21,557 nucleotides of DNA from NCBI GenBank assembly GCA_018985235.1, contig JADGIG010000090.1, positions 1-21,557 of the forward strand, in the 5' to 3' direction. A program made the position numbers and the translations under genes. Shown one piece after another: positions 2,705 through 19,918 of this stretch. Positions within the stretch are counted from its first letter, which is position 1; each line of letters opens with the position of its first letter. Source of the stretch: Sanchytrium tribonematis (taxonomy: Eukaryota > Sanchytriomycota > Sanchytriomycetes > Sanchytriales > Sanchytriaceae). The notes beneath the pieces were generated by a model. The model saw only the letters and a list, made by a program, of their open reading frames with translations. It had not been told where the DNA came from and searched no databases.

Positions 2705-3560
2705 TTTCCTTCTTTTTCTCGGCCCATTGTACTAAAATAGGCTTGTCTTCAATAATAAGTTGGTTATAAGCGCCAGTGGCAGCTTTCTCAGCAGATTCGC
2801 GGTCTTTAAAATTGATGAAAGCCGCCCGCTTTTTTTTGTTGATAATTACACTTTTAACCTCACCATAACGGTTAAAAAGTTCATCAAGCGTTGTCTCGTT
2901 AATATTCAAAGGCAAATTTTCCAGCAAAAGCGTCATTATTTTAGTATTTTCGGGTGGCGTTATAATATCTTCTTCATTCATTTTGCCTAAGATTCTAGCA
3001 GCCAGCGGATCATCGATTCCGAAGTATCGATTTCTATATATCCTCTTTCCATCAGTATTATCATCCAATAAAACTTTCTCATGCAGATAAGGACATTCCG
3101 CACCTCGATTGCATTTGTCTCTTACCCAAAATGTACACACATTTGCTTTTCTGTTATATAATTTATGTTTATGAGTCCGAGATAAGTCTCTAAGCAATTT
3201 GTCCTGCTCTGCTGTGGGTTTTTGCCTGTAGTACGCACCTTTCTTCAGTTGATTTCGAAGTTGTTCCAAATAATATTGCTTATTTGTTTCCGTAGTAGGC
3301 AATTCATTTTCTATCTGCATAACTGATTGAATCACTTGAACAGGAAGCACATAAGATATGTCCATCAGGCAACACTGGCAACAGTTTTTTAATTTCGAGC
3401 AAGTGGGACAGATCTCAGTTATAGATTTAGGCTTCCAATGAAAACCATCGAATGAACGGTCACAAACTCTGCATTGTCTAATACTCTTTATCATTTTTTT
3501 GTCTCCACTCAAGCAAAGCGCACAAGCAATTGGAAAATCAGCAGTGTCGTATGCCTGCAT
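2700..3560 (-). CDS. RBM22: RBM22/Slt11-like spliceosome activation factor
   Basis: Splicing factor of the NineTeen-related complex that contacts U6 snRNA and the intron in the activated spliceosome. The 286-residue product begins at ATG 3560 with a DFPIACALC-type start, as in RBM22. Features in order: N-terminal zinc-binding cysteines with C51 and C54 in CPTCSKLKNCCQCC (residues 51-64); a CCCH finger C142-x7-C150-x5-C156-x3-H160; YFGIDDPLA (residues 179-187), close to the family's YYGINDPVA; and an RRM at about 208-282 with RNP1-like KRAAFINF. The frame stays open upstream for 98 codons, but that extension lies antisense to LST8 and has no family match, so it was left out. It is divergent from LST8 with 52 bp between the two ATGs. 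Confidence 0.93.
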   Translation of the reverse strand: MQAYDTADFPIACALCLSGDKKMIKSIRQCRVCDRSFDGFHWKPKSITEICPTCSKLKNCCQCCLMDISYVLPVQVIQSVMQIENELPTTETNKQYYLEQLRNQLKKGAYYRQKPTAEQDKLLRDLSRTHKHKLYNRKANVCTFWVRDKCNRGAECPYLHEKVLLDDNTDGKRIYRNRYFGIDDPLAARILGKMNEEDIITPPENTKIMTLLLENLPLNINETTLDELFNRYGEVKSVIINKKKRAAFINFKDRESAEKAATGAYNQLIIEDKPILVQWAEKKKEK

Positions 3561-4595: not shown

Positions 4596-6840
4596 ATGGA
4601 AGTTTATCACCAAATAGAAGAAACAGATGGCGTTCGAATGACTTGGAATATACTCCCAAACTGTAAACAAGCAAACACAAAATTAGTCATCCCGACTACG
4701 GTATGTTATACTCCCCTAAACTTACGTGAATTTCAAAATCTCGGATATTACGCTCCTGCCCGTTGCACCAATTGTTCAGCAGTATTAAATCCGTTTACCC
4801 AGATAGACCAAAATGGTTCGTTCTCATGTTTATTTTGCATGTATAAAAATATAATTCCCCAACAAACTTTAGCAAATTTACAGGGTAACATGCTGCCAGA
4901 ATGTCATCCTAGTTATACAACTAATGAGTACATTATTAAACAGTCTCTTCCAATGACCTTGTTATTTGTGGTAGACTTGTCTATTCTTGAAACAGAATTA
5001 GATGCTTTAAAGAAGACATTGCTTGCTTTGATACAGGTTCTACCTGAGAGTACTCAGGTTGGGTTAATTACATTCCACAAGCATGCTTTTCTGCACGATC
5101 TTTCGGATACATTAGGGCTTACCCGTTGCTTTGCGTTTAAAGCCAAGCCTTATACCAGCAAAGATTTTGCAAATATATTACATCTTAATTCACAAAACAA
5201 CAATCCTCAGCAAGCTAAATCATACAAATTCTTAGCGCCATTATCAGAAGTGGAATTTCATTTGACCAATTTAATAGAAGGTTTAAAACCCTCACCTTGG
5301 CCCACTCCGTCTGATCAGCGGTACGAAACATGTACTGGCACAGCTCTTAATTTAGCCACCAGTTTACTGGAGCAGATGGTGCCGAAAACTGGAGCTCGAA
5401 TTCTAACATTTTTAGGCGGACCATGTACTCTTGGACCTGGCCAGATTGTAGACATTCCCTTGAAAAACCATTTGCGTTCGCATCATGACATAGACAAAGA
5501 AAATGCCCCTTTTTTCAAAAAAGCAACAAAGCACTACGATGAGCTGGCGAAAAGAGCGAGTGACAATGGACACGCAATTGATTTGTACACTGGATGCTTG
5601 GATCAAGTAGGTTTGGCTGAAATGAGATCGTTAGCTTCCATGACTAACGGTACCTTAGTTCTGAGTGATTCTTTTATGACATCCATTTTCAAGCAGTCTT
5701 TGTTGAAATTTTTTATGGGTAACGAAGATGGAGATCTGGATATGGGTCTAAATGCAACCATAGAGGTATTCAGTTCTCAAGATTTAAAGGTTTGTGGTTG
5801 TATAGGAAATTTAACAAGTTCGTCCAAGAAGGCTGTCAACGTGTCTGATACTATTATTGGAGTGGGAGGAACTTCCCTATGGAAAACGTCATCTCTGAGC
5901 CCTAGTTCTAGTTTTTCGTTTTACTTTGAAAATTCCTCCACCCAAGCTCAAGGCAAAACCACTGGATATATTCAATTTGCCACGACATATCAAACAGCTG
6001 TCAATACTTACAAGTTGCGAGTGACGACGGTTGCTCGAAAGTACTTTTATTTGATTTAGTTATGGGCAATCTCCGGATGGGCAAGATTCCTTAGCCAGTT
6101 TTGATCAAGAGGCTGCCGTCATTTCTATGGCACGAATTGCAATATTCAAAGCCGAGATAGACGAAGCTGCAGACGTATTACGTTGGTTAGATCGAATGCT
6201 AATTCGCTTATGCCAAAGAGCCGGAGACTTCCAGAAAGATGACGCATCTTCTTTTCATTTGAATCCTTTGTTCACTCAGTTTCCACAATTTTTGTTTCAC
6301 CTTAGAAGATCTCAGTTTTTGCAAGTATTCAACAATTCCCCTGATGAAACTGCATTTTATAGACATATATTAAATCATGAAACTGTTGGAGAGACAATTA
6401 TTATGATCCAGCCTACACTAATGCAGTATACTTGCGAGGCACCTGACAATCCAATTCCAGTATTACTTGATAGTGCATCTGTTACGAATGATAGCATTTT
6501 ACTACTGGACACCTTCTTCCATTTATTAATCCACAAAGGCGAACAAATCGCTCAATGGGTCAAAGAAGGTTATCATGAACAAAAAGAATATTCATATATA
6601 AAAGATCTACTTTTAGCGCCAGAAAGAGATGCTAAAGAGGTACTTGTGGATCGTTTTCCAGTTCCGAGGTACATTGTTTGTGATCAAAATACCTCCCAAG
6701 CTAGATTTTTATTGGCAAAGTTGAATCCATCTTCGACTTATCAATCTAATCAACAAGGCCAAGCTATTTTTACCGATGACGTTTCCCTCCAGGTTTTTAC
6801 AGATCATCTCAAAAAACTTGTAGTTAGCGGTTCTCAATAA
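4596..6840 (+). CDS. SEC23: SEC23, COPII coat GTPase-activating subunit (two exons)
   Basis: Inner COPII coat protein that activates Sar1 GTP hydrolysis and packs cargo at ER exit sites. Join 4596-6040 with 6060-6840 gives 741 residues (about 760 is usual). The N-terminus ([11 protein letters not shown]) and zinc finger C57-x2-C60-x17-C78-x2-C81 are typical, followed by trunk, beta and helical domains and a C-terminal gelsolin-like domain. R697 in [13 protein letters not shown] lies 44 residues from the end, matching the Sar1-GAP arginine finger position in yeast Sec23 (R722 of 768). The unspliced frame stops at TAG 6057-6059, inside a family-conserved stretch; removing 19 nt gives VARNYG and continues to [14 protein letters not shown], both expected. 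The stop lies in AATAAA (6836-6841). Confidence 0.95.
6041..6059 (+). other. 19-nt spliceosomal-type intron in SEC23
   Basis: GTACTTTTATTTGATTTAG interrupts the SEC23 frame in phase 2; joining AA to T restores an Asn codon. Family sequence continues on both sides (VTTVAR before, FDQEAA after). The terminal TAG of the intron is itself the in-frame stop if it is retained. TTGAT, with its A six bases from the 3' end, could be the branch point. Confidence 0.85.
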
Positions 6841-6859
6841 AGGAAATCGTCTGATTCAT

Positions 6860-7655
6860 TTAAGCAGCTTTTTTATTGTTTTTATCCGCAATGGCTTTAG
6901 CGAGTTCCTGTTGTTTTTTCTTTTCACTGATAGAGCGGAAGCTTCTTACTTCGCTTAAACATTCTACCATTTTTCCAAAATAAACTTGTTCAATCAATCT
7001 TCTCAGATTGTTTTCATGTGATTCAACAAGTTTTCCAATATTTAAGATGTGCGATGATGGAAAAGATTCTACAGGGGCAGTCACGCTTGTCTATATTAAA
7101 ATTATTTACAGATCTATGTAAATTACCACCTAAAATGACGGTATTTTGTCCCATGAAAACATGAATGGTACTTGTAAGCTGATACTCAACTTGGCTCCCT
7201 TCTTTAAATTCAATTATATGAATGGCATCCCATTGAGCATTTTCAATCACGTTTTTTATCAATATGGCAACATTGATTTGGTCTTCCACCTGATAAACAT
7301 ATACAGAACTTATTCCGGTTGCATAATATAAATTGGTATAGGTCTCAAATGCACTGTTTAATTCCTTTTCCAGCGATAATAACTTTTCATTTACATCTCC
7401 ATTTTTTTCGGCCTTCTTTGTCTCAAGAGAATAAAACTTGTTATCGAAAGGACTTCTGAAAAGGTCTCCGTCCCTATTGTAATCACTCATCAGGAAAGGC
7501 TGCTCTGATTTGAAAACTTGTAGCGGCTGATCGACACTGGAAAGTAGGTCGTCCGTTAATTCAGGCTTGATATCGATTAAATCCCCTAGAAAATTTTTGG
7601 TAGGTGGTAGCTTTTGATAAATGCTAAGCATATGGTTTAAGGCTTCCTCTGACAT
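6860..7655 (-). CDS. CAPZB: F-actin capping protein beta subunit (two exons)
   Basis: Beta subunit of the heterodimer that caps actin filament barbed ends. Join on the minus strand 7655-7110 with 7090-6860 gives 258 residues (about 270-285 is usual). Diagnostic segments: LPPTKNFLGDLIDIKP near the start, LLSSVDQPLQV at about residues 37-47, DYNRDGDLFRSPFDNKF at about 58-74, SSVYVYQVEDQINVAILIK, and LTSTIHVFM with GGNLHR just before the splice. After splicing the sequence reads SSHILNIGKLVE and then QVYFGK, the family's C-terminal helix. Without splicing the frame runs into an unrelated tail. AATAAA lies inside the last codons rather than after the stop. The start is the first ATG and matches the family. 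Confidence 0.93.
7091..7109 (-). other. 19-nt spliceosomal-type intron in CAPZB
   Basis: Read on the minus strand, GTAAATAATTTTAATATAG separates HRS from TSVTAP in phase 0. Retention shifts the frame and gives a stop downstream. TTAAT near the 3' end resembles a branch site, and the donor GTAAAT is the closest of the set to the canonical form. Confidence 0.85.
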
Positions 7656-7815
7656 TCACTTCGATTGCAGCAAGTCGTGTTTCAAAAAAGAAGAAATAAA
7701 CCCTGTTTCCGAAAAATTTCAATTTTCTTGAAAATGTTAGCGTTTACTTGCAGTTCAAAAGCATTTAAGAATTTATTCCAGTGCACCGCTTTAGGCCAAA
7801 AGTTTATGAAATCAG

Positions 7816-8895
7816 TTAAGGATCTTTGTGCACTGTTTCTAATTCAACTGGTTCATAATCAGTGTTTGTTTGAAATTCTTCTAAATGTAAAATATAGAAT
7901 CCTAGGCAAAGGACTATCGATCCGATGATCATATTCCATGAAAGATTTGATTTTTGTAGGGCAATATCGCAAAGTAGAACACTTGGAATGCTCAAAAGAC
8001 AGCCAGCTGCAGCAATGGTCGGACTAGTCATTGAAATTAGCTGAAAAAATAAAGTGTCAAATAAAACTCCTGTGAAGACCACTATGCTTAATATCGAAAA
8101 TTCGTACAAGGTTGGAAATTCAAATATTTCTTCTCCTGTTGCGCTGTTGATGGCAATAGGGATCCAGAACGTAAAAAACGAACTAATTCCCATAAGCCCA
8201 GTGAAAAAGAAAGAAAATTGAGAGCTTGGTTTTGATGGATTGACAGCATTTAAATAATACAAATTTTCATACAAGCCATACAAAATAGCTCCTATAAGTC
8301 CTAGAAAATTTCCATATAGATGGCTTTCCTCGGACTCGTAGCCAACAAGAGCAATAATACACACGCCTGACATACTTAGAAGCACCCCAAACCATTTTCG
8401 CAACATAGATTTTTCACCAATTAATAGAATACTAAAAATGTAGGCGAAACAAGTTCCAGAATTGAAAATGGCTGTAAGTTCATTTGTAGTTGTATGCACA
8501 ATAGCCAAATACCAGAAATATGTGCACAAGTTATACAAAGTGACAAGCCAAGCGCTGGTCCACAATATTTGAGAGAATGATCTATCGCTCATATAATCAA
8601 GACATTCCTGGATGTAACTGTATATGTGTGCTTTTGAAGTAATTAATTTAAAGCTAAGACTGTGGCCTTTTCTAATCAAAAATTGGATATATTCTGAAAG
8701 CAACACTAATACGAATGACCCATGCACGCAGTAAACAATAAATGTAGGTTTGTTATAAAATCCTTGCAGATAGCCTGCCATTTCTGTTTGGATGGTCACG
8801 CTCAAAATGGCACCAAATAAAACAAACCACATTTTCCGGAACCCTAGGAGTTGCAAAAATAATGAAGAAATTAAGTTACCGCATCTTGAAATCAT
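7816..8895 (-). CDS. SLC35F-like drug/metabolite-transporter family protein
   Basis: Multi-pass membrane transporter of the DMT superfamily, closest by eye to the SLC35F/YML018C group. The 359-residue product from ATG 8895 has about ten hydrophobic segments. GFYNKPTFIVY after the first segment parallels the YNKPFF motif of the group. The stretch TSAWLVTLYNLCTYFWYLAI, then ELTAIFNSGTCFAYIFSILLIGE and a RKWFGVLLSMSGV helix, is typical of the first EamA-like half; a second half follows (ILSIVVFTGVLFD, SPTIAAAGCLLSIP). Substrate is unknown. A second ATG at 8832 begins directly before the first transmembrane segment and could be the true start. No AATAAA follows the stop closely. It diverges from the Sds3-like gene with 98 bp between ATGs. 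Confidence 0.82.
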   Translation of the reverse strand: MISRCGNLISSLFLQLLGFRKMWFVLFGAILSVTIQTEMAGYLQGFYNKPTFIVYCVHGSFVLVLLSEYIQFLIRKGHSLSFKLITSKAHIYSYIQECLDYMSDRSFSQILWTSAWLVTLYNLCTYFWYLAIVHTTTNELTAIFNSGTCFAYIFSILLIGEKSMLRKWFGVLLSMSGVCIIALVGYESEESHLYGNFLGLIGAILYGLYENLYYLNAVNPSKPSSQFSFFFTGLMGISSFFTFWIPIAINSATGEEIFEFPTLYEFSILSIVVFTGVLFDTLFFQLISMTSPTIAAAGCLLSIPSVLLCDIALQKSNLSWNMIIGSIVLCLGFYILHLEEFQTNTDYEPVELETVHKDP

Positions 8896-8993
8896 AATAT
8901 TTATTTGCGCATATTTCACATGTCAGAGCAAGCCTCCAAAACTTCAATTATAATCTTGTCTCAAGAAAATCTAGCTCTCCTTTAAACCAATAA

Positions 8994-9817
8994 ATGTCAC
9001 AGAAAAAAGCTGTCAAAAGTTTGTCCCAGCTAGAGGAACAACTTGCGGCACTGAAAGAAACGGTTATGGTAGAGAGGCTTACAATTTTGGGAATCGAGGA
9101 GGTCCTTACCAAAATAAAGTTTGTACACCCGCAAATACATGATTTGATAAAAATTGCAGCAGAAAAATTTAAAAATGATCTGGAGGGTCAAGCTACAATG
9201 GAGAAACTTACCATTAAACAGGCCGAAAAGCAAAGAGATATAGCAGTGAAGCATGCCAACAAGGAATATGAAAAGAATCTAAAACATGTACGAAAAATAT
9301 TAATACAAGAAGTATTTTACAAAATGCATCATCTCAAGAAAAACAGTGTGCGTCTAGGACCCCATCCATTATCAAAGAGAATAGATCGAATGAGATTGAT
9401 GCACAAATTGAGTTCCAAGCACATTATGCCAACCCCTTCATCTAAATCCACCAACGCAGAATTAGAATTCGATTTGAATGTTATTAAAGTAGATGTTTAT
9501 TAATTTAGAAAAATAGCGAAGATATACCATTTCATTTACAGCCGTTTTCGGATCCATCAGGCATACTGATATATTTTGTTCCGGAGCATTATCTCATCCG
9601 CTATGCTGGAAAATGCATCAAAGCTGGTGATACATTTATGATGGTTATTAATCACCAAAAAACAGAATGTAAATTATTGCAAGTCAGATCGAGAGAAGTA
9701 ATTTGTGTTTTATTAATTGCGTCAAATGCTGAGAAAGTGTTCACTGTAGGAGAACTACGGAGTCCCAAAATTAAATTGGACTTACTGGAAGTCAAAAAAG
9801 AAACAGAAATAAACTGA
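8994..9817 (+). CDS. Sds3/SUDS3-like histone deacetylase corepressor subunit (two exons)
   Basis: Sds3 proteins scaffold the Sin3-Rpd3 histone deacetylase complex in the nucleus. Join 8994-9488 with 9509-9817 gives 267 residues (human SUDS3 has 328). Exon 1 encodes a long charged coiled coil (about residues 10-115) with repeated K/E/Q heptads, as in the Sds3/BRMS1 family. Exon 2 encodes a C-terminal beta-rich domain: AGKCIKAGDTFMMV, then TECKLLQVRSREVICV and FTVGELRSPKIKL, which lines up with the SUDS3 C-terminus (a YLESKDN-type strand, ISSVGANEIWVRK, YLGQLQRG). Without the 20-nt intron the frame stops at 9503 and the C-terminal domain is orphaned. The family call rests on recollection of SUDS3 and is moderate. 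The TGA stop directly abuts the stop of the next gene. Confidence 0.72.
9489..9508 (+). other. 20-nt spliceosomal-type intron in the Sds3-like gene
   Basis: GTAGATGTTTATTAATTTAG lies between IK and KNSED in phase 0. It contains an in-frame TAA, so a retained intron ends translation. ATTAAT just before TTAG resembles a branch site. Support is slightly weaker than for the other three because the family is more divergent near the junction. Confidence 0.75.
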
Positions 9818-9820
9818 TCA
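9808..9820. terminator. Back-to-back stop codons of convergent genes
   Basis: AATAAA (9808-9813) sits inside the last codons of the Sds3-like gene, followed by its TGA (9815-9817) and at once by TCA (9818-9820), the minus-strand TGA of the coiled-coil gene. The two stops form the palindrome TGATCA with no base between them. Confidence 0.55.
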
Positions 9821-12445
9821 CAAAATTGTAGTGCCAATAGTAGAATCAATAACATCTTGAAAAATTGAATTTGTTATAAAATTTAGTAGATTTTCTTTTT
9901 CTTGATTGAATGCATCCCAACTCTTTTCTTCTAATTTGACTTCATCCATCAAAACTTCATCAAAAAACTCGTCTGCTCTGTAAGATAACCAGACTTCTAC
10001 TTTTTTCTTTAATTCTCTTGATATCCTTTCTTTAGATATTGTCGGACTTTTAAAATGGGTCCAAATTTCTTGAAAAGCCTCCGCAATCAAGTCTAAAATA
10101 ATCATTGTATCTGATCCATTTGCAACAACTCGATTACTAATAACTGGGAAATTGATTGCAGTCATATCATCTGGCATATCTTCAAACATTAAATTGATAA
10201 GATTCTGTATTGAATCAACGTCAAATGAGACTTGAATTTCTTTGGAAACATATTTTGCGGCCAACATATCATTGACAGCTTCCTCTAAGATAATTTCGAA
10301 TACTCCATCGCAGACCAAAGTCATCTTGTCGCTATTAGCTAGGGATGAGTCATCAATCAGGCTTTCACCTTTCTGGGAATTAAGCGATGAATTTCTAGAT
10401 GAGTTTTGTGACAATTCCCTAGAATTGGATAAAAAGACTTTCTCTACTATGTTTTCTATATTTCTTTCTACCTCAAAAACGTCAAGCTTTGGCTTACTTG
10501 AAGGCCAAAGTGTTTGCTCAATCGGGTTTTCGATACTTTCATTAAAATTGCCTTTTAACATTTCAGCAATGGAATCTTCAATTTGAGAAAGTCTGTCCTT
10601 CAGTTGGACTTCTTGCTCTCTCATTTTCAACTTGCGTTCCCGCTTTCTTTTTTGTTTTTCAAGGTCTAATTCCTGTTGTTCTTTTAATTTGGATTCGATA
10701 TCAAATTTAAGCTTATTCACTCTACCTTTGACTACTGAAGTGTCGGTCGTAATGTCTTCCAATACTTCGTGTGTTTGGGAAATTGACTCGAAGTCGGGCA
10801 AGTATATATTTTCGATTTCTCTCACTGGTTGCCTTTCCAAATCTTTTGTTGCATTCGTAATATTTGACAGGTCCAATGCAGCTGAAATTAACGAGTCAAT
10901 TTGAGAAGCTACTGAGTCTTTGCTTATTGTATCTGGTGAATAACTTCTAGGGGAGCTGTAAATGGGAACACTTTCTGTTTTCTGATTTGATAAAAATTCT
11001 CCAGCCTTTATCAATTCTGAAATTGAATTTTCTCTTTGCGAATTATTTTGGGCACTAAATTCGTTACGGATATTATCTTCAAATTCAATCATTTCAGGAA
11101 TGGTTTTCCTGGATAAAATTTTCTCTTCGCTTCTAAAATCCAAGGGATGATCCCAACCTATTTCATTGGCCTCGGTTTGAGTCCCTTCAGATTTGTCTTC
11201 TTGGAAAGTTTGAACACTTTCGTTCTCGGTGGAGCACTTTTGTTGTAGGTGAAATTCTGAAATTTCAGATAAATCGGTGATATCAGGTGTTGTAAAATTA
11301 TCAACCAATATTTTGGTTTCTAGAATGGATTTTAGAAGAGAAACTATCTTGTTAGAATCATTAGAAGATTTAATATCATATTTTAAAAGACGTTCTAAGC
11401 CAGTCGCAATTAAGTACTTCGGATCATTCATATTCAAATCGAAAACTTGCTGAAATTCCGTAGTATTTTTTAAGCTTTTAAGTGAATCGTTGGACTCAAA
11501 TAAATTATTATAGATCTCGGAGAGACCGGATTTCATGTCTTGTGGTTCTAAATTGAATAATACTCGACTTTCAGTAGATGTTATCATAATATCGGATTCA
11601 GATTCAATACGTTTCTTCCGCAGGATATCTTTCTTATTTACCAATATGGGAAGTGACTGCTTTGGTTCATTATCTGAAATAGAACTCAGGTCACTGACGC
11701 TCGTGCTATGCGGTAATTCTTTTGGAGTGTATTTCTCAAATTTACCTGCAGAAGTCTTTAGAACGGATTTACTCTGCAAAATTTGATACGCGCTTTTGCA
11801 TTTGGCATCAATGTAATTTATGTTTTTGATTCGTAATGATGATGAAGATTCGTCATAATGAGCTACACAATCAGTTTGGTCAACAGTTTCCTCTGATAAA
11901 GTGTCGTCATCGTCACTTGATACCTGGCCATCAACAAGGCTAGTATGCAAGGAAAGCTCAAATTGATGGTGGGGATATGTGGGTTTTGTTATCAGATGCT
12001 GAACCTTTGATGACAAGGATTTTGATAGAAATATTATATTTTGGAGCTTCTGATCTATTACGGCGCTAGTTTTTATCAATTCTGGATCCAGATTCATTTT
12101 TGTGATTGATTTTGGATAACTCTTCAACCTTCTATTGCTTTTTAATCTCGGGAGTGCTGTGTATATTGGAATCAAATTTGGCGATTGGATAATTTTTTCA
12201 CTCAATACATTGGTGGAATTTGACTCTGTCTTTAACATTTGAGGTTTTTTTTTGTAAGGATGATTTCTTTTTTTCATTTTAGATAATTGTTCTCTTCTAT
12301 ACTGCTCCAATTGAAAAAGTCTCTCCCTGATTATTTCTTTATTCTTTTGTTTGTCCGTGATATCAATTAGTTTGGGCTTACTAGTCAATATTGGCTGAGA
12401 TGGAATGAATGAGAGCGTTTTCGAAACTCGTTTTTTTTCAAGCAT
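9818..12445 (-). CDS. Large coiled-coil protein, possible CEP350/DUF4378-like C-terminus
   Basis: 875 residues from ATG 12445 as a single exon. The N-terminal part is basic and low-complexity (ERLFQLEQYRREQLSKMKKR near residue 45). The middle is Ser/Asp/Glu-rich and probably disordered, with an acidic SSDDDDTLSEE patch. A strongly charged coiled coil lies at about residues 580-635 (EKQKRKRERKLKMREQEVQ). The last 60 residues are helical and acidic (FFDEVLMDEVKLEEKSWDAF, then NFITNSIFQDVIDSTI), a pattern of EE-W spacing followed by IF..L..DT that resembles the C-termini of CEP350-type centrosomal proteins and plant DUF4378/TRM proteins. That resemblance is weak and from memory. A centrosome or basal-body role would fit a zoosporic organism but is only inference. 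Confidence 0.7.
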   Translation of the reverse strand: MLEKKRVSKTLSFIPSQPILTSKPKLIDITDKQKNKEIIRERLFQLEQYRREQLSKMKKRNHPYKKKPQMLKTESNSTNVLSEKIIQSPNLIPIYTALPRLKSNRRLKSYPKSITKMNLDPELIKTSAVIDQKLQNIIFLSKSLSSKVQHLITKPTYPHHQFELSLHTSLVDGQVSSDDDDTLSEETVDQTDCVAHYDESSSSLRIKNINYIDAKCKSAYQILQSKSVLKTSAGKFEKYTPKELPHSTSVSDLSSISDNEPKQSLPILVNKKDILRKKRIESESDIMITSTESRVLFNLEPQDMKSGLSEIYNNLFESNDSLKSLKNTTEFQQVFDLNMNDPKYLIATGLERLLKYDIKSSNDSNKIVSLLKSILETKILVDNFTTPDITDLSEISEFHLQQKCSTENESVQTFQEDKSEGTQTEANEIGWDHPLDFRSEEKILSRKTIPEMIEFEDNIRNEFSAQNNSQRENSISELIKAGEFLSNQKTESVPIYSSPRSYSPDTISKDSVASQIDSLISAALDLSNITNATKDLERQPVREIENIYLPDFESISQTHEVLEDITTDTSVVKGRVNKLKFDIESKLKEQQELDLEKQKRKRERKLKMREQEVQLKDRLSQIEDSIAEMLKGNFNESIENPIEQTLWPSSKPKLDVFEVERNIENIVEKVFLSNSRELSQNSSRNSSLNSQKGESLIDDSSLANSDKMTLVCDGVFEIILEEAVNDMLAAKYVSKEIQVSFDVDSIQNLINLMFEDMPDDMTAINFPVISNRVVANGSDTMIILDLIAEAFQEIWTHFKSPTISKERISRELKKKVEVWLSYRADEFFDEVLMDEVKLEEKSWDAFNQEKENLLNFITNSIFQDVIDSTIGTTIL

Positions 12446-12587
12446 CTTTGGCCTGATTCAAAACACTAACTTTGCTAAGCATTTGAATAAGGAACGAGGC
12501 AGGTTGTAAATTTTGTTTTAGAAATCGCATTACATTATTTGGAATTAGTTAAACACTTGGAGCACAAATTTATTAAGCATATTTTAT

Positions 12588-13106
12588 CTAGGGTTTTAAT
12601 TTAAACAATTCCTTTTGGTATACTCTTTTGATTGTCGGCTTTCGTAACTTGTTAGCCTCTGATGGTTTGGGAAATCTTATTCTTTTTCGAAAGTTTCTAA
12701 CTTTTAAGGACTCCATCAAATTAACTTTTTCATCCCAGGAATGTTCTGGACAGACATAAACATGTTTTAGCGTATCATACGAGCTGGTAGTTATCATATG
12801 TCCGCAGGGACACTGATCCTTAAAGTTCCACAATTGTTTTACTTTCTCTCTACATTCTATAGAGTCGATTTTGTCTTTGTCCAGCAAAGTGCGGTCCCAA
12901 GTAATGTTTGGGGGAAACTGCGTTTTCATTGAGCTGCTTTTGAAATTCTTATGACTTTTGAGATTTAAAATCAATTTGTCTAAGGCACTTACATGATGAC
13001 ACTTTCTATAATGTCTAGTGTATCTAGATTGATCTTTATTTTGTGTGCCGCAAATGCACTTAAAATTAAGGCTATGCACTGCAGATTTTTCAACCACGCC
13101 CAGCAT
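12588..13106 (-). CDS. Protein with two CxC-HxxxC zinc-finger-like repeats
   Basis: 172 residues from ATG 13106; the frame extends eight codons upstream without another ATG. Two similar modules are visible: C17-x-C19-x12-H32-x3-C36 (CICG ... HYRKC) and C99-x-C101-x13-H115-x3-C119 (CPCG ... HVYVC), each with CxCG first and HxxxC second and each followed closely by a further His. This suggests a tandem C2HC-type zinc finger. The C-terminal 50 residues are very basic (NFRKRIRFPKP, RKPTIKRVYQKELF), consistent with nucleic-acid binding. I do not recognise the family. TAG 12590-12588 is followed on the minus strand by AATAAA about 15-20 bases downstream. Sequence 12446-12587 between this gene and the promoter side of the previous one holds nothing else I can identify. 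Confidence 0.72.
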   Translation of the reverse strand: MLGVVEKSAVHSLNFKCICGTQNKDQSRYTRHYRKCHHVSALDKLILNLKSHKNFKSSSMKTQFPPNITWDRTLLDKDKIDSIECREKVKQLWNFKDQCPCGHMITTSSYDTLKHVYVCPEHSWDEKVNLMESLKVRNFRKRIRFPKPSEANKLRKPTIKRVYQKELFKLKP

Positions 13107-13136
13107 TGTATTTTCAAGGAGAACTTGCAAGAAAAT
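13107..13136. promoter_or_regulatory. 30-bp gap between divergent start codons
   Basis: If both chosen ATGs are right, only 30 bp lie between the zinc-finger gene and the 624-residue gene. An in-frame ATG further upstream in the plus-strand frame (13077) would overlap the minus-strand gene. Promoter use is inferred. Confidence 0.35.
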
Positions 13137-15011
13137 ATGAAAGAGATAGACGTCTTCGAAAAATATATCTCTAGAAAAGGTTATAGCGAAGATGAAATTG
13201 GAAAATATAAAAGCATATCTACAAAGTATTTTGCTTTCTGCAAAGACAATAATTTAAAAATCAATAGCTCATCAAAGCCTGCCCTACATGAACAAATTGT
13301 CAAATTTATTCAATCCATTGACAGGTCCGAAGTATCGAATATACACGGATTAGATCTACTTATGCAATTTTACGGAACGGAATTTGCCCTTGATGATCCA
13401 TCAGTCATTGCTGCAATTGAGGGTGGCTTTGAAAGCATTATTGATCCTTTTGCCAACTTTGATCCTGAAAAACGTCAGGTTCTCACTTCAATTGCTCAAA
13501 AAATTAATATTGATCCTCGAAGTTTTCCAGTCGATGTGATTGATAATATACCAGATTTTGAGATTTTTGAAAATATATTAGCTGCCAAACCAGACATTTC
13601 GTTAGAGAAGCAATTGGACTTAATCAATTTGATTATCCAAAAGTTAAATTACGCTTCAATGTTCACTCACATACCTACCAAATTAAACACACCAAACTTA
13701 CATCCCTCAAGCTATTTTTTTGACAAACATGGAGGGAAACACTATTATTTTTATTTCGATTTTGACAGCCATAGCTTTTATGTGTCATTTTGTAAGTTAC
13801 CACACTCGGGAGAAACATTTATAATCTTTGATACCAAATATCAAAAAATCCAAGTTATTCATTCCTTAGCTATTCTTTATTTGCTGTCGATTGGCAAATT
13901 TAGTCGGATTATAGACCTTCGAATTGTCTTCTATTATAAAGAATCGGAAAATTGTTATGTAAACTTTTTATTTCTTTATTTAATTTTTCGTGGACTTTCC
14001 GAAAAACGCCTTGATCAGACTATAATGTTTCCAAATCTAGCCAAAGACAATGCAGATGTGAGTAAGTACCTTTTGCGATTAATATTGGATCAGAGTACTG
14101 ACAGTTTTACTATGGATGATTGGATTGATGCTGAATTGTACAAAGTTGCAATAACAGAGTCGGAACTTCAAAAATTTAGATCGGCCGAAAATTTTCAAAA
14201 GCTCTCTGATTATCAATCCTTATTTGATATTAAAATCGATTCCAACATAAATGAAATCCAGATCGATTCCAAATCTGAAAATTTGGTGGGTATAGATCAA
14301 ACCCAAGACAATACTGTTTTAGATTTGACAAACATCTCTGATTCGGGTTCTTCGGAAGATCCAACATTACAAATTCTTCGACGAAATCCCGAATCGCAAA
14401 ATTTCCCTAACAAACGAAGAAAACTTTCATTTGATCAAAAAAGTATAACTTCTCCAATAATATCAAATCAATTGAACTCCAACACATCTTCTACAGATTC
14501 TACTTATTCAAGTCAAATTCATGATGCTTCACCCGTTAGTGATTTAAGTCCCAACAAATACAATTCTAGTCCAGCCATGGCGACAACTGAAATGGGTCGC
14601 AGTCCCAGCAAATTTGAGATAACAGAGGCTTTTTCAAAGCAATCAGAAGCTTCAGGAAAATCAAAGCGTCAAATAGCAAAAGTTGATGACGCTTTTCAAA
14701 AGTACACTCAACCAAGTCCCAAAAAGGTTCAAGATAGCTGTAAAAAACAAATTACTAATTTTGTTGATAAAGAGAAGGATAAATCGTCTTTGTCAAGCAA
14801 TTATAATGCCTTCCAACTCAAAAATATGGTCACCAAATCAGCGTTTGGTTTTGAATTTGAGGGAAAAATCATAACTTTGGACCAAGCAGAGGCATTAGAA
14901 AGTGAAATGCTGCTTGAGGCAGAAATTTTAGAAACGGAAATTAAAAATTTGCTTCAAGCTTCTAACAACATCAGTTTTGTAGAAACGATTGAACAATTTG
15001 TAAATCAATAA
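13137..15011 (+). CDS. Unrecognised 624-residue protein with possible degenerate Ulp1-like core
   Basis: Single exon from ATG 13137; earlier in-frame ATGs overlap the minus-strand gene. Residues 1-180 are helical. Residues 195-295 carry a beta-rich stretch with H202 (GGKHYYFYFDFD), D232 (ETFIIFDTKYQ) and C273 (ENCYVNFLFLYLIFRGLS), in the order His-Asp-Cys of C48 (Ulp1/SENP) proteases, and the last segment resembles the family's DCGVF helix and its following G-loop. The usual Trp after His and the Gln and Gly around Cys are missing. Residues 390-560 are Ser/Asn-rich, with VLDLT followed by acidic residues (394-408), a plausible SUMO-interacting motif, and KRRKL (426-430), a likely nuclear signal. 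The tail has an acidic helix. Function is unknown; the protease resemblance is speculative. Confidence 0.75.
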   Translation: MKEIDVFEKYISRKGYSEDEIGKYKSISTKYFAFCKDNNLKINSSSKPALHEQIVKFIQSIDRSEVSNIHGLDLLMQFYGTEFALDDPSVIAAIEGGFESIIDPFANFDPEKRQVLTSIAQKINIDPRSFPVDVIDNIPDFEIFENILAAKPDISLEKQLDLINLIIQKLNYASMFTHIPTKLNTPNLHPSSYFFDKHGGKHYYFYFDFDSHSFYVSFCKLPHSGETFIIFDTKYQKIQVIHSLAILYLLSIGKFSRIIDLRIVFYYKESENCYVNFLFLYLIFRGLSEKRLDQTIMFPNLAKDNADVSKYLLRLILDQSTDSFTMDDWIDAELYKVAITESELQKFRSAENFQKLSDYQSLFDIKIDSNINEIQIDSKSENLVGIDQTQDNTVLDLTNISDSGSSEDPTLQILRRNPESQNFPNKRRKLSFDQKSITSPIISNQLNSNTSSTDSTYSSQIHDASPVSDLSPNKYNSSPAMATTEMGRSPSKFEITEAFSKQSEASGKSKRQIAKVDDAFQKYTQPSPKKVQDSCKKQITNFVDKEKDKSSLSSNYNAFQLKNMVTKSAFGFEFEGKIITLDQAEALESEMLLEAEILETEIKNLLQASNNISFVETIEQFVNQ

Positions 15012-15036
15012 GGATTTCATAAAAATTTGGACCTTG

Positions 15037-15059
15037 AATAAACTATTATAATTTTATTA
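15037..15059. terminator. Paired poly(A) signals between convergent genes
   Basis: AATAAA at 15037-15042 serves the plus-strand gene ending at 15011, and a minus-strand AATAAA at 15058-15053 overlaps the TAA stop (15059-15057) of the prenylcysteine oxidase gene. Confidence 0.5.
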
Positions 15060-16355
15060 AAGAATTCTTTTTTCGATCAATTTTGCCAAATTCATACCAG
15101 AGACTGACTGAGTTTCCATAGTTGATAATATTGGTTCAAAGGATGAAGCATAAAAAAGGTTTTTTGCAATCTCAATAGGCTGGACTTCGGGATTTGGATG
15201 TAATTTAGGGTAGGAGTAGTACTGTTGTATTTTTTCAAATTTAACATCTGTAAACATACGATGTGTCAAGTCTGGTATGCTTTGATTTGTAAACACTTTA
15301 TAAAGATGAGTTTTATCGCCCAAACGAATTTTTGATACAGATGTAAATTCGCAAGAGTACCTTAAACAGAAGATTGAATCTGGAACTTGCTTTAGTCCAA
15401 AGTAACTCGCATTTATATTCCCTTCCACTACCGTGATATATATTTTATAGTAGTCTATTTTTTTGATGTTTTTAATTTGAAAATCTACTTCAATCCCACT
15501 TAAAAAGAAATCTCCAGCTGCATGAACAATATAGTCATATTCGTATCTCCATTTTCCGTCAACTAATAAGTCATATCGAGAATCGTTCTTTGATATTTTC
15601 TTGACAGCTGATTTTGTGTGAACATTAGCGATGGAATTTGCAAGAAAACTTTCAAATATTTTAGAATTACCTCCATCAATGGTATATGAATTATCACTAA
15701 GAATGCCCACTAGACAACCTAATGCATGTGACTGATCCAGGTCCCTACCATAATTCACTAGCGTGGTCACCTCAGCTATCTCATTTTTAAAATTTTCACT
15801 GAGCCCAGCCAAGGCAATTCTTGCAGTTGTATTTAAAGTCTCCCATAGATCCAAGTCCCCCAACAATTTTCCAATATCATCAAATGAGTCGAGTTCATAG
15901 ATTTTTTTGTATTTGGCTGCTGCCTGGTCACCTAAATCTGTCCCTCGCTTTAATGAGTAACCATATCTCCAAAGCATCCTTATTTTCGTTAACCATCCGT
16001 AAGGTGATGACTCAAATACAAATTCCTTGCCATTGTAGAATCCAAAAGTTCCACTTTCATTTAAATATTTCAAATTGAATTTCTTACTTGCGTTAACTAA
16101 AATTGGATTTGAATCAACAAATATAGAAGCACCAAAATCCACCTTTATTCCACCGTTAAATGGGACTGCAATGCTATCCACTCGACCTCCAATTTTATCG
16201 CTCTTTTCAAACACATCAATCTGTAAATTTGTAGATTCTGAATCAAAATGGTGAGCAAATGAAGTACCTGCAGGACCGGCTCCGATGACTGCAATTTTGA
16301 CATCTTTCGTTTTAATATTCAATTGCAAGCTATTAGCCAAGGACAGGAAAAACAT
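15057..16355 (-). CDS. PCYOX1: Prenylcysteine oxidase (farnesylcysteine lyase) family
   Basis: FAD-dependent thioether oxidase that releases cysteine and a prenyl aldehyde from prenylcysteines left by breakdown of prenylated proteins; lysosomal or vacuolar in known cases. The 432-residue product from ATG 16355 has a short hydrophobic N-terminus (MFFLSLANSL), the dinucleotide-binding GAGPAG at 25-30, FEKSDKIGGRVDS (about 49-61), and family stretches FGFYNGKEFVFES, IRMLWRYGYSLKR, VTTLVNYGRD and DGGNSKIF. Family proteins run to about 500 residues, so it is slightly short. The longer frame to 16451 overlaps the divergent PPR gene and was not used. The gene is absent from budding yeasts as far as I know. 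Confidence 0.85.
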   Translation of the reverse strand: MFFLSLANSLQLNIKTKDVKIAVIGAGPAGTSFAHHFDSESTNLQIDVFEKSDKIGGRVDSIAVPFNGGIKVDFGASIFVDSNPILVNASKKFNLKYLNESGTFGFYNGKEFVFESSPYGWLTKIRMLWRYGYSLKRGTDLGDQAAAKYKKIYELDSFDDIGKLLGDLDLWETLNTTARIALAGLSENFKNEIAEVTTLVNYGRDLDQSHALGCLVGILSDNSYTIDGGNSKIFESFLANSIANVHTKSAVKKISKNDSRYDLLVDGKWRYEYDYIVHAAGDFFLSGIEVDFQIKNIKKIDYYKIYITVVEGNINASYFGLKQVPDSIFCLRYSCEFTSVSKIRLGDKTHLYKVFTNQSIPDLTHRMFTDVKFEKIQQYYSYPKLHPNPEVQPIEIAKNLFYASSFEPILSTMETQSVSGMNLAKLIEKRIL

Positions 16356-16374
16356 TTGTAACCTGGAGATTGAA
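16356..16374. promoter_or_regulatory. 19-bp gap between divergent start codons
   Basis: Only 19 bp separate the ATG of the prenylcysteine oxidase gene from that of the PPR-like gene. If both starts are right, transcription must begin inside the opposite coding region or the mRNAs must be nearly leaderless. Confidence 0.4.
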
Positions 16375-18822
16375 ATGACAACCTTCTTCAGAAGAACGCT
16401 TTTGGAAATACCGAAAGCTATATTAAATATGCCAGTAGAAAAGGCTATCACCTCAAAACATGCATTGGATATGTGCGCCTTATATCTGAGTGATCAAAGA
16501 CTTAATATTTTTAATTGGCAAATGTATTATGATCGATTTCCAATTAGAAGCCTTTGGCCAATGCTCGTAAAAGATTGGAGTGACTCTTCAACTCTGCTGT
16601 TACTTTATTCGCACTTAGATGATTATCATGCTTTTCCTTTTGAATTTTTAAGAAAAGTCAAACCAATTAATTTAATGATGGGACATGCATTACTGGTGGC
16701 ATTGTCTCATTCTAGACAAATGTCGCTCAGTTTACAGACGAAATCAGTTAATATTAAAACAGTATTACATATGTTAATAAGTTGTGGCATTCCACTAACG
16801 GAAGTGACGATTCAACTTGCATTTGAAGCACTTGTTCGTAAAGTTGGATACACCACTAGGCTAGCAGAGAATCAAAATATTTTGAATCTTATAGAAGAAA
16901 TATCAATGATTCAACGTCGGTCAGGTGTTCCAAATTCTCACCAGATTGATATTGCCAAATTGAAAGTTTTAGGAAGCAATAAGGCATACAACGAAATGTT
17001 TGCGCATTTTGAAATTATGGAGACGAAAGATCAATTGGCTTATATTTATTTGTACAGATATTCTAGAATGTCTCTTGAATCTGCTAAACAATGCGCCGGG
17101 AAATATTTGGATGCTATTTTCTCGTTTATCAAGCCTAGCAAGGATCTGTTTTATCAAGCTTTTCGGGTGGCTAAGGAATCTGACTCAATTGACTATATTC
17201 CCAAGCTTTTAGATGCATATACTTCACAATATGAGATAACTCCTAGGCTTTACGATCTTTTAATTGGAATGCTTATGGTTCAATACGGTAAACTTGATTC
17301 TGTTGAGACTCTAATGAATGACATGCAAGCGCAAAATATTAACTTCAGTAACACCACTTACTACCATTTAATGACTTATCATAGCTCTGTCGATCCAAAT
17401 AGTCGTGATCTTAATAGCCTTATAACAATGATGAAGGAAAGAGACCATTCTGAACTCCCTCTTGAAGAATCAAATTTAGATCAAATTTATACGTCTACTA
17501 AAGCGAATCTACAGTCAGGCTTTTCAGTGTCATCTTTTTATGAATTTTTAAAATTTAGAAGAGATTTCCCAAATCAGAGCGTAGACCTAGAAAATCTTAT
17601 CCCTTCTGAGTATATCCATATGATCCCACCGCCGCCCCATTTGAGGAACCCTAATTTGGTTGCGTTTGACTCAAGTAATGCGATATATGACGCCAATTCT
17701 CCTTTAAATTCAATAAGGAGAAATATTAAGTGGGATCTAAATGGAAAGGAAGAAAACTTGTTTATATCAACTGAAAACTTTGTAAATGACAATACTCCTG
17801 CAACCATTCTTTCTAAAAAAGACTCGAAACACACTTCTGACACATCTTATGTAGAATTTGATGGTAGGATGTGCCTTAAGGTATTAAGGTGTCTCGCGCA
17901 GGAAAATAGATTACCTGGGGCATTGTATTATTGGTCTAGAATTTTGTCAGGTTTAAAAACCTCCATTGGTGGATATTATGTGTCTCGCTATGAGTCCTAT
18001 GATACAAATTATGATCCTTTGAAAAATTTATTGATCTCCACCAAATCTATATACAAAGATGACGAAAAACTTGAACTCAAGGAAAAATATTTAAAATATG
18101 TACCATATTGCGATAAAAATGTTACAAAATCACCATTAACTGCATTTTATCCGCGTCCATCTGGGCTACATTACCCTGTAACAGGATCCATTTATCTTCC
18201 TAGTGATTTGGTAAAAGCGACAGTATTGATTATTGATTATATTCATCGATATGAAGTGATGTCTGATTTTCAATATCCAGAATTAGATACTAGTGCATTT
18301 TTGAAACCAGATGTATTTAAAAATAGAAAAATTGACAATTGGCTAGGCAAACCAGTGTACTTGGATATAATTTACTCCAGCCTGGATGAATTTTCTGCTT
18401 TATGCAAAGAAAATCATAAATTCACCCGAATTCCGAATATAGAAGAGTACGAGTCTGTCCCTACCATACAGGATCCTGTACTACTTGGGCTGCTTTGTAG
18501 AAGGCTGTTTTTGGATACTATTGCTATAACTGTCGATACCTTTGATCAACCAAAAGATATTGCTCATTTTTCATGGTTTAAAGATTTATGTTATCGATTA
18601 TCCATACCCTCGATTCAATTTGAAAGGAAGTCTAGGCGGAATAACAATTATATTCTCAGGGAAGGTGATTATGGGAGTCTTGGTCTTACGGGTGATGTTA
18701 ATTCTATGCTAAAATCAATATTGCCAAAGGATAATGGTATATTCGACAAGGGCGCACCGGATTTTGACAAGGATGCCTACACGCATCATTCGAGTCAGAC
18801 TGCTCACAATACCGCCCAGTAA
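16375..18822 (+). CDS. Mitochondrial PPR-like helical-repeat protein
   Basis: 815 residues from ATG 16375. The N-terminus MTTFFRRTLLEIPKAILN is basic, amphipathic and free of acidic residues apart from one Glu, as in a mitochondrial presequence. The body is made of helical pairs; the clearest pentatricopeptide-like unit is at about residues 291-336 (LYDLLIGMLMVQYGKLDSVE, then LMNDMQAQNINFSNTTYYHL). Fungal PPR proteins of this size commonly act in mitochondrial RNA processing or translation, so a similar job is inferred. The C-terminal half (from about residue 420) has no motif I know; it includes RMCLKVLRCLAQENRLPGAL, which may be another degenerate repeat. A longer frame from 16285 overlaps the divergent gene and was rejected. 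Confidence 0.72.
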   Translation: MTTFFRRTLLEIPKAILNMPVEKAITSKHALDMCALYLSDQRLNIFNWQMYYDRFPIRSLWPMLVKDWSDSSTLLLLYSHLDDYHAFPFEFLRKVKPINLMMGHALLVALSHSRQMSLSLQTKSVNIKTVLHMLISCGIPLTEVTIQLAFEALVRKVGYTTRLAENQNILNLIEEISMIQRRSGVPNSHQIDIAKLKVLGSNKAYNEMFAHFEIMETKDQLAYIYLYRYSRMSLESAKQCAGKYLDAIFSFIKPSKDLFYQAFRVAKESDSIDYIPKLLDAYTSQYEITPRLYDLLIGMLMVQYGKLDSVETLMNDMQAQNINFSNTTYYHLMTYHSSVDPNSRDLNSLITMMKERDHSELPLEESNLDQIYTSTKANLQSGFSVSSFYEFLKFRRDFPNQSVDLENLIPSEYIHMIPPPPHLRNPNLVAFDSSNAIYDANSPLNSIRRNIKWDLNGKEENLFISTENFVNDNTPATILSKKDSKHTSDTSYVEFDGRMCLKVLRCLAQENRLPGALYYWSRILSGLKTSIGGYYVSRYESYDTNYDPLKNLLISTKSIYKDDEKLELKEKYLKYVPYCDKNVTKSPLTAFYPRPSGLHYPVTGSIYLPSDLVKATVLIIDYIHRYEVMSDFQYPELDTSAFLKPDVFKNRKIDNWLGKPVYLDIIYSSLDEFSALCKENHKFTRIPNIEEYESVPTIQDPVLLGLLCRRLFLDTIAITVDTFDQPKDIAHFSWFKDLCYRLSIPSIQFERKSRRNNNYILREGDYGSLGLTGDVNSMLKSILPKDNGIFDKGAPDFDKDAYTHHSSQTAHNTAQ

Positions 18823-18828
18823 ATATTA

Positions 18829-18990
18829 TTAATTGTCAACTAATTTGCCATGCTTAGCTTGTTGTTTTGCAATATCGTTTAGAACAAAATTGCTGCATTT
18901 TAAAATCCATGCAATCACAAGATCTTGCGTAAACCAAGCGATTAAATCCCTTATTTCTCTGGGAAGGCGTTTCTTCATCATTTTCACCAT
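18829..18990 (-). CDS. Possible 53-residue small protein
   Basis: A minus-strand ORF from ATG 18990 to TAA 18831-18829 fills the only otherwise empty gap here (18823-19056). It has a basic start (MVKMMKKRLPREIRD), a hydrophobic amphipathic helix (LIAWFTQDLVIAWILKCSNF) and a charged tail. Spacing fits the local style: six bases to the convergent PPR stop and 66 bp to the divergent RPN10 start. The helix pattern faintly recalls a histone-fold central helix, but I cannot name it. It may equally be chance. Confidence 0.4.
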   Translation of the reverse strand: MVKMMKKRLPREIRDLIAWFTQDLVIAWILKCSNFVLNDIAKQQAKHGKLVDN

Positions 18991-19056
18991 AAATTGTTTC
19001 AAAAATAACAAAATAGTAGAATTTTATATTTCAACAAATATCGGAGTTGAAACATA

Positions 19057-19918
19057 ATGTCTTCTTTGCAAGCTACTGTCGTCTTGGTTGATAATTCAAA
19101 TTGGATGAGAAATGGGGATTACTACCCTAGTAGATTCAGATCAACTTTAGATGTATTAAACTTGATATTTACAACTAAAACACAGCAACATCCAGAAAAT
19201 ACATTAGCCGTCATGACTGCCTCAAAACCTAGGGTACTTACAACATTTACAAACCAACTTGGGCCATTTTTAAGTGGTATTCATCACATGGACCTTGATG
19301 GAAACAACGAATTTTTAGATGCGCTTTTGGTTGCTCAACTGGCACTTAAGAATAGAACTAACAAGAATCAAAATCAATACATTCTCGCATTTGTGGGATC
19401 CCCATTGACCGACAGTAAAGACGATTTGATAAAAATGGCCAAAAAGCTGAAAAAAAATTCAATCGCAGTAGACGTGGTGTCTTTTGGAGAGATTAAAGAA
19501 AATCAAGAAAAGTTGGAAGCTTTTGTTGGAACCGTAAATAACAATGATAATAGGTCTTAATTATTTATATAGTCATTTGGTCCCAATTGAGCCATGTACC
19601 AACCTTTCTGATCAGTTGATACAAACTCCAATATTCGCAAATACTGCAATGCAGCAATTTGAGTTTGGAGTAGATCCTGATTTAGATCCTGAGCTCGCGA
19701 TGGCTCTCAAGCTTTCAATGGAGGAAGAAAAGGCCAGACAAGGCGGTGTAGATGTCAAAGAAGATGTTGTAATGGAAGAAATGGATCCCGAGTTGGCAAA
19801 GGCAATTCAGATGTCCATGCAAGATAATGAGATGTCCACCGATGAGGAGCTTCAAAAAGCACTAGAGATGTCAATGCAGCAAGATACCGATATGAAAGAT
19901 TCAAAAAATAAAAAGTAG
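19057..19918 (+). CDS. RPN10: RPN10/PSMD4, proteasome ubiquitin receptor (two exons)
   Basis: Subunit of the 26S proteasome regulatory particle that binds polyubiquitin. Join 19057-19553 with 19573-19918 gives 280 residues. The N-terminal VWA domain starts VVLVDNSNWMRNGDYYPSRF (D12-N13-S14) and includes ILAFVGSPLTD and KLKKNSIAVDVVSFGE. After splicing the sequence reads NDNSHLVPIEP, matching the family's GSHLVTVPPG. Three ubiquitin-interacting motifs follow: DPELAMALKLSME (204-216), DPELAKAIQMSMQ (237-249) and DEELQKALEMSMQ (256-268). Yeast has one such motif and human two. The unspliced frame would stop at 19560 and lose all three. AATAAA (19907-19912) lies in the last codons. Confidence 0.96.
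19554..19572 (+). other. 19-nt spliceosomal-type intron in RPN10
   Basis: GTCTTAATTATTTATATAG interrupts the frame in phase 2; AG plus T restores the Ser of the conserved SHLV segment. It contains an in-frame TAA. The donor GTCTTA departs from GTA, while the ATAG end matches the others. Confidence 0.85.

Follow-up and report, generated by a model that had tools for sequence, protein, structure and literature searches.

Introduction

How short can a spliceosomal intron become? Among the closest systems described so far, heterotrich ciliates such as Stentor coeruleus have introns of 15–16 nucleotides (nt), the branch A in Stentor standing at position 10 of 15 or 11 of 16 (PMC9505925). The nucleomorph of the chlorarachniophyte Bigelowiella natans holds 865 introns of 18–21 nt; it is reported that no 5′ site motif can be identified in them and that the U1 and U5 of the nucleomorph are shrunken (PMC6461891). 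The mikrocytid Mikrocytos mackini (Rhizaria) has 224 introns of 16–17 nt, and 17–19 of its spliceosomal proteins were identified (PMC10245619). In the microsporidian Encephalitozoon cuniculi introns span 22–76 nt, 37 of them in the paper cited (PMC3629993). Introns of 25–45 nt are recorded for Paramecium, and one of 23 nt for Trichomonas. These figures, and the comparisons below, draw on selected passages of the sources.

Here we describe a stretch of 21,557 nt (the window), contig C301 of a draft assembly of 6,336,753 bases in 311 contigs. An earlier note on this DNA had pointed to tiny introns in four of its genes: SEC23, CAPZB, an Sds3-like gene and RPN10. That observation is correct but understated, in that the four introns are part of a genome-wide class. 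As judged from the sequence, the segments are almost certainly U2-type (major) spliceosomal introns of near-fixed length, 19 or less often 20 nt, occurring throughout the genome of a small-genome organism that is probably a fungus. Their unit reads GTA-N8 or N9-T-N-A-Y-N-T-A-G, the A that precedes Y being the putative branch A.

How does this class compare with those already described? With Stentor it shares one dominant length, richness in A and U, a branch A 5 nt before the last base, and conservation of both U6 ACAGAGA and the branch recognition sequence of U2; the most abundant Stentor intron, GUAAUUUUUAUAUAG, resembles it (PMC9505925). It differs in having 4 nt more between the 5′ site and the branch A, in its plain TNAY consensus and in its setting, a 6.3-Mb assembly, probably fungal, with about 660 consensus introns above background, compared with the thousands of Stentor (PMC9505925). 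Nucleomorph introns resemble it in length range, in their large number within a reduced genome and in a canonical U6 ACAGAGA (PMC6461891), whereas here GTA, TNAY and TAG are plain, the 5′ end of U1 is canonical and the host is no relict endosymbiont nucleus. Mikrocytids likewise combine a reduced genome, a near-single length and a conserved motif, but the introns described here are 2–4 nt longer (PMC10245619); the present genome encodes SF1, Prp8 and an RBM22/Ecm2-like gene. The microsporidian E. cuniculi has a reduced genome as well and stands on the fungal side of the tree, but its introns are few, longer and variable in length (PMC3629993). The earlier note had rightly named the nucleomorph (18–21 nt) and ciliates as comparable cases; its list was incomplete, lacking the mikrocytids (16–17 nt, PMC10245619) and Stentor (15–16 nt). 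Judged by titles, abstracts and passages, the open-licence literature yielded no fungus with introns near 19 nt, which is no proof that there is none, and the introns reported here are shorter than any fungal introns that we found described in it. They apparently represent an independent case of ultrashort introns and, if the host is a fungus, the first for Fungi within the literature searched.

Results

Tiny introns in four genes of the window

The SEC23 intron (6041..6059, plus strand, GTACTTTTATTTGATTTAG) is 19 nt long and lies in phase 2, with a putative branch A at 6054, position 14 of 19. It separates exon 1 (4596..6040) from exon 2 (6060..6840), both defined by the joined frame and the Sec23A alignment. 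The joined protein aligns over residues 2–739 with its solved homologue Sec23A (E 6.7e-201) and is ungapped at the junction, where VTTVARNYG faces VTTIARNWA. On the minus strand, the CAPZB intron (7091..7109, GTAAATAATTTTAATATAG; 19 nt, phase 0, putative branch A 7096) lies between exon 1 (7110..7655) and exon 2 (6860..7090), placed by the joined frame and the alignment with CapZ beta. Residues 1–251 align with solved CapZ beta, ungapped at the junction and with a one-residue gap a few residues downstream; the Pfam domain F_actin_cap_B (7–225) covers the junction at residue 182.

The RPN10 intron (19554..19572, plus strand, GTCTTAATTATTTATATAG; 19 nt, phase 2, putative branch A 19567) begins with GTC, a less usual 5′ end than GTA. 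It parts exon 1 (19057..19553), which encodes the VWA domain, from exon 2 (19573..19918), which encodes the UIM motifs; both exons follow from the joined frame, Pfam and an alignment with solved RPN10 that is ungapped over the junction (VNNNDN/SHLV, the stroke marking the junction, versus VNNNETSHIV). In the Sds3-like gene, also on the plus strand, an intron of 20 nt (9489..9508, GTAGATGTTTATTAATTTAG; phase 0, putative branch A 9503) stands between exon 1 (8994..9488; joined frame and Pfam match) and exon 2 (9509..9817; joined frame). The Pfam match of this gene (residues 8–117, 26.2 bits, cut-off 25.4) ends short of the junction near residue 165. With no Pfam domain over the junction, the Sds3-like intron rests on frame, motif and length.

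The four GT...TAG segments of 19, 19, 20 and 19 nt are thus all present where the earlier note had placed them. Excision restores the frame in 4/4 genes, and each joined frame is open to its stop, as had been claimed. The family-conserved sequence said to span the SEC23, CAPZB and RPN10 junctions is confirmed by the ungapped alignments, and the Sds3-like gene, for which none had been claimed, indeed has a Pfam match that stops before the junction.

One dominant length and a branch-site motif

Are the four segments peculiar to this window? We assembled a sample of 25 sequences, the window and 24 fetched stretches, which comprises 254,255 bases, or about 4% of the genome, and was analysed on both strands. 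The sample is non-random, 17 of the 20 contigs of the first fetch coming from a WD40 match list and the four later stretches lying on four of the same contigs, and it was picked without regard to introns. We counted 23 instances of GTA...TNATNTAG at 19 nt and 9 at 20 nt; the background is a mean of 1.95 per length at 41–60 nt (2.09 in a first-order Markov control), and the top count at any other length of 13–40 nt is 7, at 35 nt. Our frame test demands at least 40 open codons on both sides after excision and a stop if the segment is read through. It was passed by 22 of the 23 GTA...TNATNTAG sites at 19 nt, by 7/9 at 20 nt and by 1/2 at 21 nt, compared with 2/55 at other lengths of 13–44 nt.

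A motif-free search considered every GT...AG of 12–120 nt that joins two open reading frame (ORF) blocks of at least 60 codons. It returned 170 joinable ORF pairs, with its peak count at 19 nt (31); there were 8 joins at 16 nt, 12 at 22 nt and, as the second-highest count, 24 at 115 nt, where background is high. TNAY occupies the branch position in 24 of the 31 joins of 19 nt (19 TNAT, 5 TNAC), and the remaining seven look like chance. A motif solution of 18–21 nt exists for 26 of the 170 pairs; the other 144 will include same-strand neighbouring genes and antisense frames. When 19–20-nt bridging segments were compared for their terminal letters, with correction for base content, GT/AG came out on top of all 256 dinucleotide pairs. 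With a weak codon model, a scan for coding potential returned 20 solutions at 19 nt versus 4–15 at nearby lengths; because single longer lengths reached up to 22, we used the ORF-block and motif tests in its place.

Relaxing the consensus to TNAY leaves the profile in place, with 30 sites at 19 nt and 9 at 20 nt versus 2.74 per other length, while the TNAR variant, which has a purine after the A, shows no length peak in the sample. The frame is restored by 33 of 60 GT...TNAYNWAG sites at 19 nt and by 7 of 30 at 20 nt, compared with 39 of 769 (5%) at the other 26 lengths of 13–40 nt; at this background, a few of the 40 frame-restoring sites should be due to chance. Position 3 is A in 30 of the 33 sites of 19 nt, and position 5 is never G (T in 20, A in 9, C in 4). 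The putative branch A lies 5 nt before the last intron base, at position 14 of 19 or 15 of 20. Over all 40 sites the three phases are represented 14, 14 and 12 times, and 35/40 fall within the 3′ half of the frame after joining, a proportion that the 40-codon rule and chance sites may distort. This contrasts with intron-poor genomes, in which intron positions show a 5′ bias. No second length peak was seen up to 120 nt in these 254 kb of 6.34 Mb, the background being high at long lengths.

Genome-wide counts and further genes

The motif was also counted over the whole genome. The TNAT consensus matches 621 times at 19 nt, 139 times at 20 nt and 48 times at 22 nt. With the 22-nt count taken as background, the excess amounts to about 573 at 19 nt and about 91 at 20 nt, or some 660 consensus introns together; TNAC and other variants lie outside this count and would add to it. 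A reversed-pattern control gave 185, 142 and 184 matches at 19, 20 and 22 nt. It is not level-matched, because it yields 184 matches at 22 nt compared with only 48 for the forward pattern.

Outside the four genes of the window, 28 candidates from the sample were joined, and all were scanned with Pfam. In 17 of the 28 joined models a Pfam domain runs over the junction: NAD kinase, C2, MBOAT, ATG2, Sec3, CNH, acyl-CoA dehydrogenase, RGS, G-beta, E2-binding, ketol-acid reductoisomerase (KARI), amino acid transporter, mitochondrial calcium uniporter, anoctamin, proteasome, EML propeller and choline transporter. The genes for the mitochondrial calcium uniporter (L026, minus strand, near 9665) and anoctamin (L027, near 3921) each have a tiny intron.

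The same junctions in related species

Public protein records of related organisms bear on the same junctions. SEC23 relatives are 72–77% identical to the protein of the window, and EukProt relatives 74–80% over the genes compared. The SEC23 ORFs P0005 (EukProt, NODE_335) and P0075 end at the intron and read ARKYF as the window does, which at this codon corresponds to a 5′ site that starts with GTACTT. P0001 has SEC23 at full length; either its organism has no intron there, or the record is spliced. The ORFs of five CAPZB relatives (P0122–P0126) end shortly past the CAPZB junction, and those of three RPN10 relatives (P0242–P0244) break at the RPN10 junction, P0243 ending right at it.

Could these tails be read back as introns? 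Reverse translation of the CAPZB tails fits a TNATNTAG intron of 21, 20, 19 and 19 nt for P0122, P0123, P0125 and P0126, of which P0126 is only 49% identical and sits on a long branch in the CAPZB tree. RPN10 tails fit one of 20 nt (P0242) and 19 nt (P0244). The P0243 tail is too short to inform, and little can be learned from the two SEC23 tails, for which 21 nt is possible. In all, 6/7 informative CAPZB and RPN10 tails fit a TNATNTAG intron of 19–21 nt, which comparable GTA sites do by chance in 1.1–1.6% of cases; P would be about 1e-10 under independence, a condition that tails of related species do not meet. Genes of related species appear, from these tails, to have retained these tiny introns in the same positions. 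The public proteins P0005, P0075, P0122–P0125, P0242 and P0244 end in short false tails at introns, and annotation of this lineage is probably affected by intron-cut proteins.

Separately, the longest contig listed for P0075 (SEC23), P0122 (CAPZB) and P0243 (RPN10) is in each case 37,340 bases long. The three genes may lie on one contig in a relative as they do in the window, which would be a case of conserved gene order.

Splicing machinery of the genome

U2 RNA is clear (115.9 bits, cut-off 46) and keeps the branch-recognition sequence GUAGUA; so is U6 RNA (61.8 bits, cut-off 44), which keeps ACAGAGA. The 5′ end of U1 is canonical, AUACUUACCU. With a canonical U1 and no G at position 5 in any of the 33 sites of 19 nt, pairing with U1 would be weaker than that of GUAAGU, to judge by the letters. 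Prp8 is encoded in one open frame of 2239 amino acids.

The profile for the helix-hairpin domain of SF1 (SF1-HH) found no match in the genome. The SF1 gene (L029:976-2188, plus strand) was found via its KH domain, of which the unspliced sequence matches only positions 3–46 of 76. The match is partial because a 19-nt intron, GTATTTCGAACTTATTTAG, at L029:1657 splits the domain; in the joined protein residues 126–350 align with SF1 across the junction and the KH domain is whole. The gene for the branch-point binding protein itself appears to depend on splicing of this intron class. An RBM22/Ecm2-like gene lies in the window at 2703..3560 on the minus strand, with Pfam matches to STL11_N (51.4 bits, cut-off 27) and RRM_1 (43 bits, cut-off 20.7) and one to zf-CCCH_RBM22 of 30.2 bits, below its cut-off of 53. 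A probable splicing factor is thereby retained in this genome.

Placement of the host and neighbouring genes

What kind of organism carries these introns? The named proteins among the 120 best SEC23 matches are all fungal (48–51% identity), whereas the best named CAPZB matches are from animals (41%), with fungi at 36–39%. A tree of 31 SEC23 rows groups the window with three relatives, with 100/100 support, on a long branch (1.05 and 0.65 about the midpoint root); the nearest named rows are the blastocladiomycete Paraphysoderma (1.99) and Rhizophagus (2.13). Since this tree holds fungi and one further row only, it cannot show that the window is fungal. In an RPN10 tree that also includes plants and amoebae, the window falls together with the fungi, but the branch is weakly supported (52/90; 44% of bootstrap trees); its nearest named rows are Rhizophagus and Calcarisporiella and not the three blastocladiomycetes; the CAPZB tree gives the window no resolved position. 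We consider it probable that the host is a fungus. 'Fungus-like', as the earlier note put it, stays the right word, with fungal SEC23 matches, best CAPZB matches from animals and a place left unsettled by the RPN10 and CAPZB trees.

The genome has a G+C content of 35.3%. Amoeboradix gromovi and Sanchytrium tribonematis, for which accelerated evolution is reported, have 36.3 and 34.6% G+C, and their ORFs were called by TransDecoder; at 10.5 and 11.2 Mb, their assemblies exceed the 6.3 Mb of the present one (PMC8371127). The long branches and the 35% G+C seen here are like those of Sanchytriomycota (PMC8371127). On balance, we take a sanchytrid or near kin to be somewhat more likely than not. 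We found no account of sanchytrid introns in the literature searched; in the main text of PMC8371127 the word 'intron' occurs once, in the reference list.

Two further genes of the window were noted. A Prenylcysteine lyase gene (149.7 bits) lies at 15060–16373 on the minus strand, and a long protein of 875 amino acids is encoded at 9821–12445, also on the minus strand, with a weak DUF4378 match of 22.2 bits, below the cut-off of 25.7.

Discussion

Frame restoration, domain continuity and a near-fixed length combined with a fixed branch motif support the earlier note in its claim of spliceosomal introns. So do the spliceosomal RNAs, Prp8 and SF1 that this genome encodes, and the junctions that it shares with relatives. 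Several observations weigh against the claim. The introns are known here from genomic DNA alone, and chance accounts for some of the 40 motif sites that restore the frame. A likely example is GTCGCATTAAATGATCAAG at 4513–4531 (plus strand), near the 3′ end of an intact WD40 gene, presumably LST8-like to judge by eye: the site passes the frame test and is probably a chance match, and so a false positive. Against the reversed-pattern control alone there is no excess at 20 nt (139 vs 142), so that the 20-nt class leans on the frame test and the length profile. Among the joined genes, 6 of the 17 domain matches (acyl-CoA dehydrogenase, RGS, E2-binding, KARI, proteasome and choline transporter) extend at most 16 residues beyond the junction on the shorter side, and 11 of the 28 models have no Pfam domain over the junction, the match being missing, ending before it or starting after it. 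For one of these eleven, a PP2A-like phosphatase, a PP2A match (query 1–170), present as a table entry only, covers the junction at 140. The CAPZB tail of P0124 fits TNATNTAG at no length from 13 to 26 nt; an AAG end at 25 nt would fit. Non-consensus and longer introns may also be present.

Some results on the splicing machinery weigh against it as well. The searches for small nuclear RNAs covered U1, U2 and U6, and U1 scored 43.7 bits, below the Rfam cut-off of 69.5, though the match spans the whole model. No clear large subunit of U2AF emerged (best match 51.6 bits, cut-off 310.3; L028, which by eye looks like RBM39), nor did the N-terminal domain of Cwc25, whose profile matched nothing in any genome; in both cases the control genomes were prokaryotic, and absence is unproven. 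SF1 was itself missed by one profile and then found, so a failed domain search, for U2AF and Cwc25 as well, does not amount to absence.

Might the segments be something other than introns? Frame breaks are the usual sign of assembly or sequencing errors, and this assembly is a draft of 311 contigs. Errors would not, however, produce one and the same 19-nt pattern, with GT and TAG at its ends and a branch motif inside, in hundreds of copies, and proteins of relatives, taken from other records, break at the same codons; we regard this source as extremely improbable. Alternatively, the segments could be kept in the mRNA while ribosomes hop over them (translational bypassing) or shift frame. Bypassing, of which the byp elements of yeast mitochondria are a case, also skips short segments without splicing. 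A bypassed segment would need no splice signals, though, and these segments have GT/AG ends, first of 256 dinucleotide pairs, and, at a constant distance of 5 nt from the last base, an A with a pyrimidine after it, in a genome that encodes U1, U2, U6, Prp8 and SF1. Bypassing is, in our estimate, very improbable. Elements eliminated from the DNA, like the internal eliminated sequences of ciliates, would also be short, frame-restoring and genome-wide; yet the ends found here are splice sites accompanied by a branch motif, and among named SEC23 proteins the best matches come from fungi and not from ciliates, which leaves this origin a chance close to nil.

It could also be that the introns are real but that some of their true borders differ, with lengths that vary beyond 19–20 nt. 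Many ORF pairs can be joined by an alternative GT...AG, and 144/170 have no motif solution of 18–21 nt. Homologues nevertheless fix the junction in SEC23, CAPZB, RPN10 and SF1, and the search that used no motif peaks at 19 nt, so that we rate such variation as very improbable. Near-fixed spliceosomal introns of 19 or 20 nt are the reading that we adopt.

How would a spliceosome handle such an intron? The 5′ GUA would be read by U1 and then by U6. SF1, followed by U2 through GUAGUA, would choose as branch point the A found 13 nt downstream of the first intron base, or 14 nt in introns of 20 nt; the lariat would close into a loop of about 14 nt, and the 3′ splice site would be the AG that ends 5 nt past the branch A. 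Between branch site and 3′ site there would be no room for a polypyrimidine tract. As the 5′, branch and 3′ sites nearly touch, the whole intron may act as one length-measured signal, that is, as intron definition by length. In Stentor and in the present genome, two unrelated lineages, the 3′ spacing is the same and the 5′ spacing differs, from which we infer that the distance from branch to 3′ site is at its floor. The comparison suggests that a physical limit acts at the 3′ end and that length varies only in the interval between 5′ site and branch site.

Could a whole lineage have gone this way? We lean slightly towards the view that an entire fungal lineage, perhaps the sanchytrids and their kin, has reduced its introns to a single length-measured cassette of 19–20 nt, apparently independently of heterotrich ciliates, nucleomorphs and mikrocytids, and has come to a stop, as Stentor has, at a spacing of 5 nt from branch to 3′ site. 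If true, this would reveal a hard geometric limit of the spliceosome, and the fungus that reached it would be one in which SF1, Prp8 and an RBM22/Ecm2-like factor are still encoded. Gene-prediction programs that do not admit such introns cut these genes, so that claims about the gene content of the lineage may have to be re-examined. Introns of this size put to the test how closely the 5′, branch and 3′ sites can sit in one spliceosome, and if the host is a fungus, the question would lie nearer to yeast genetics and the yeast spliceosome structures than it does in ciliates or nucleomorphs.

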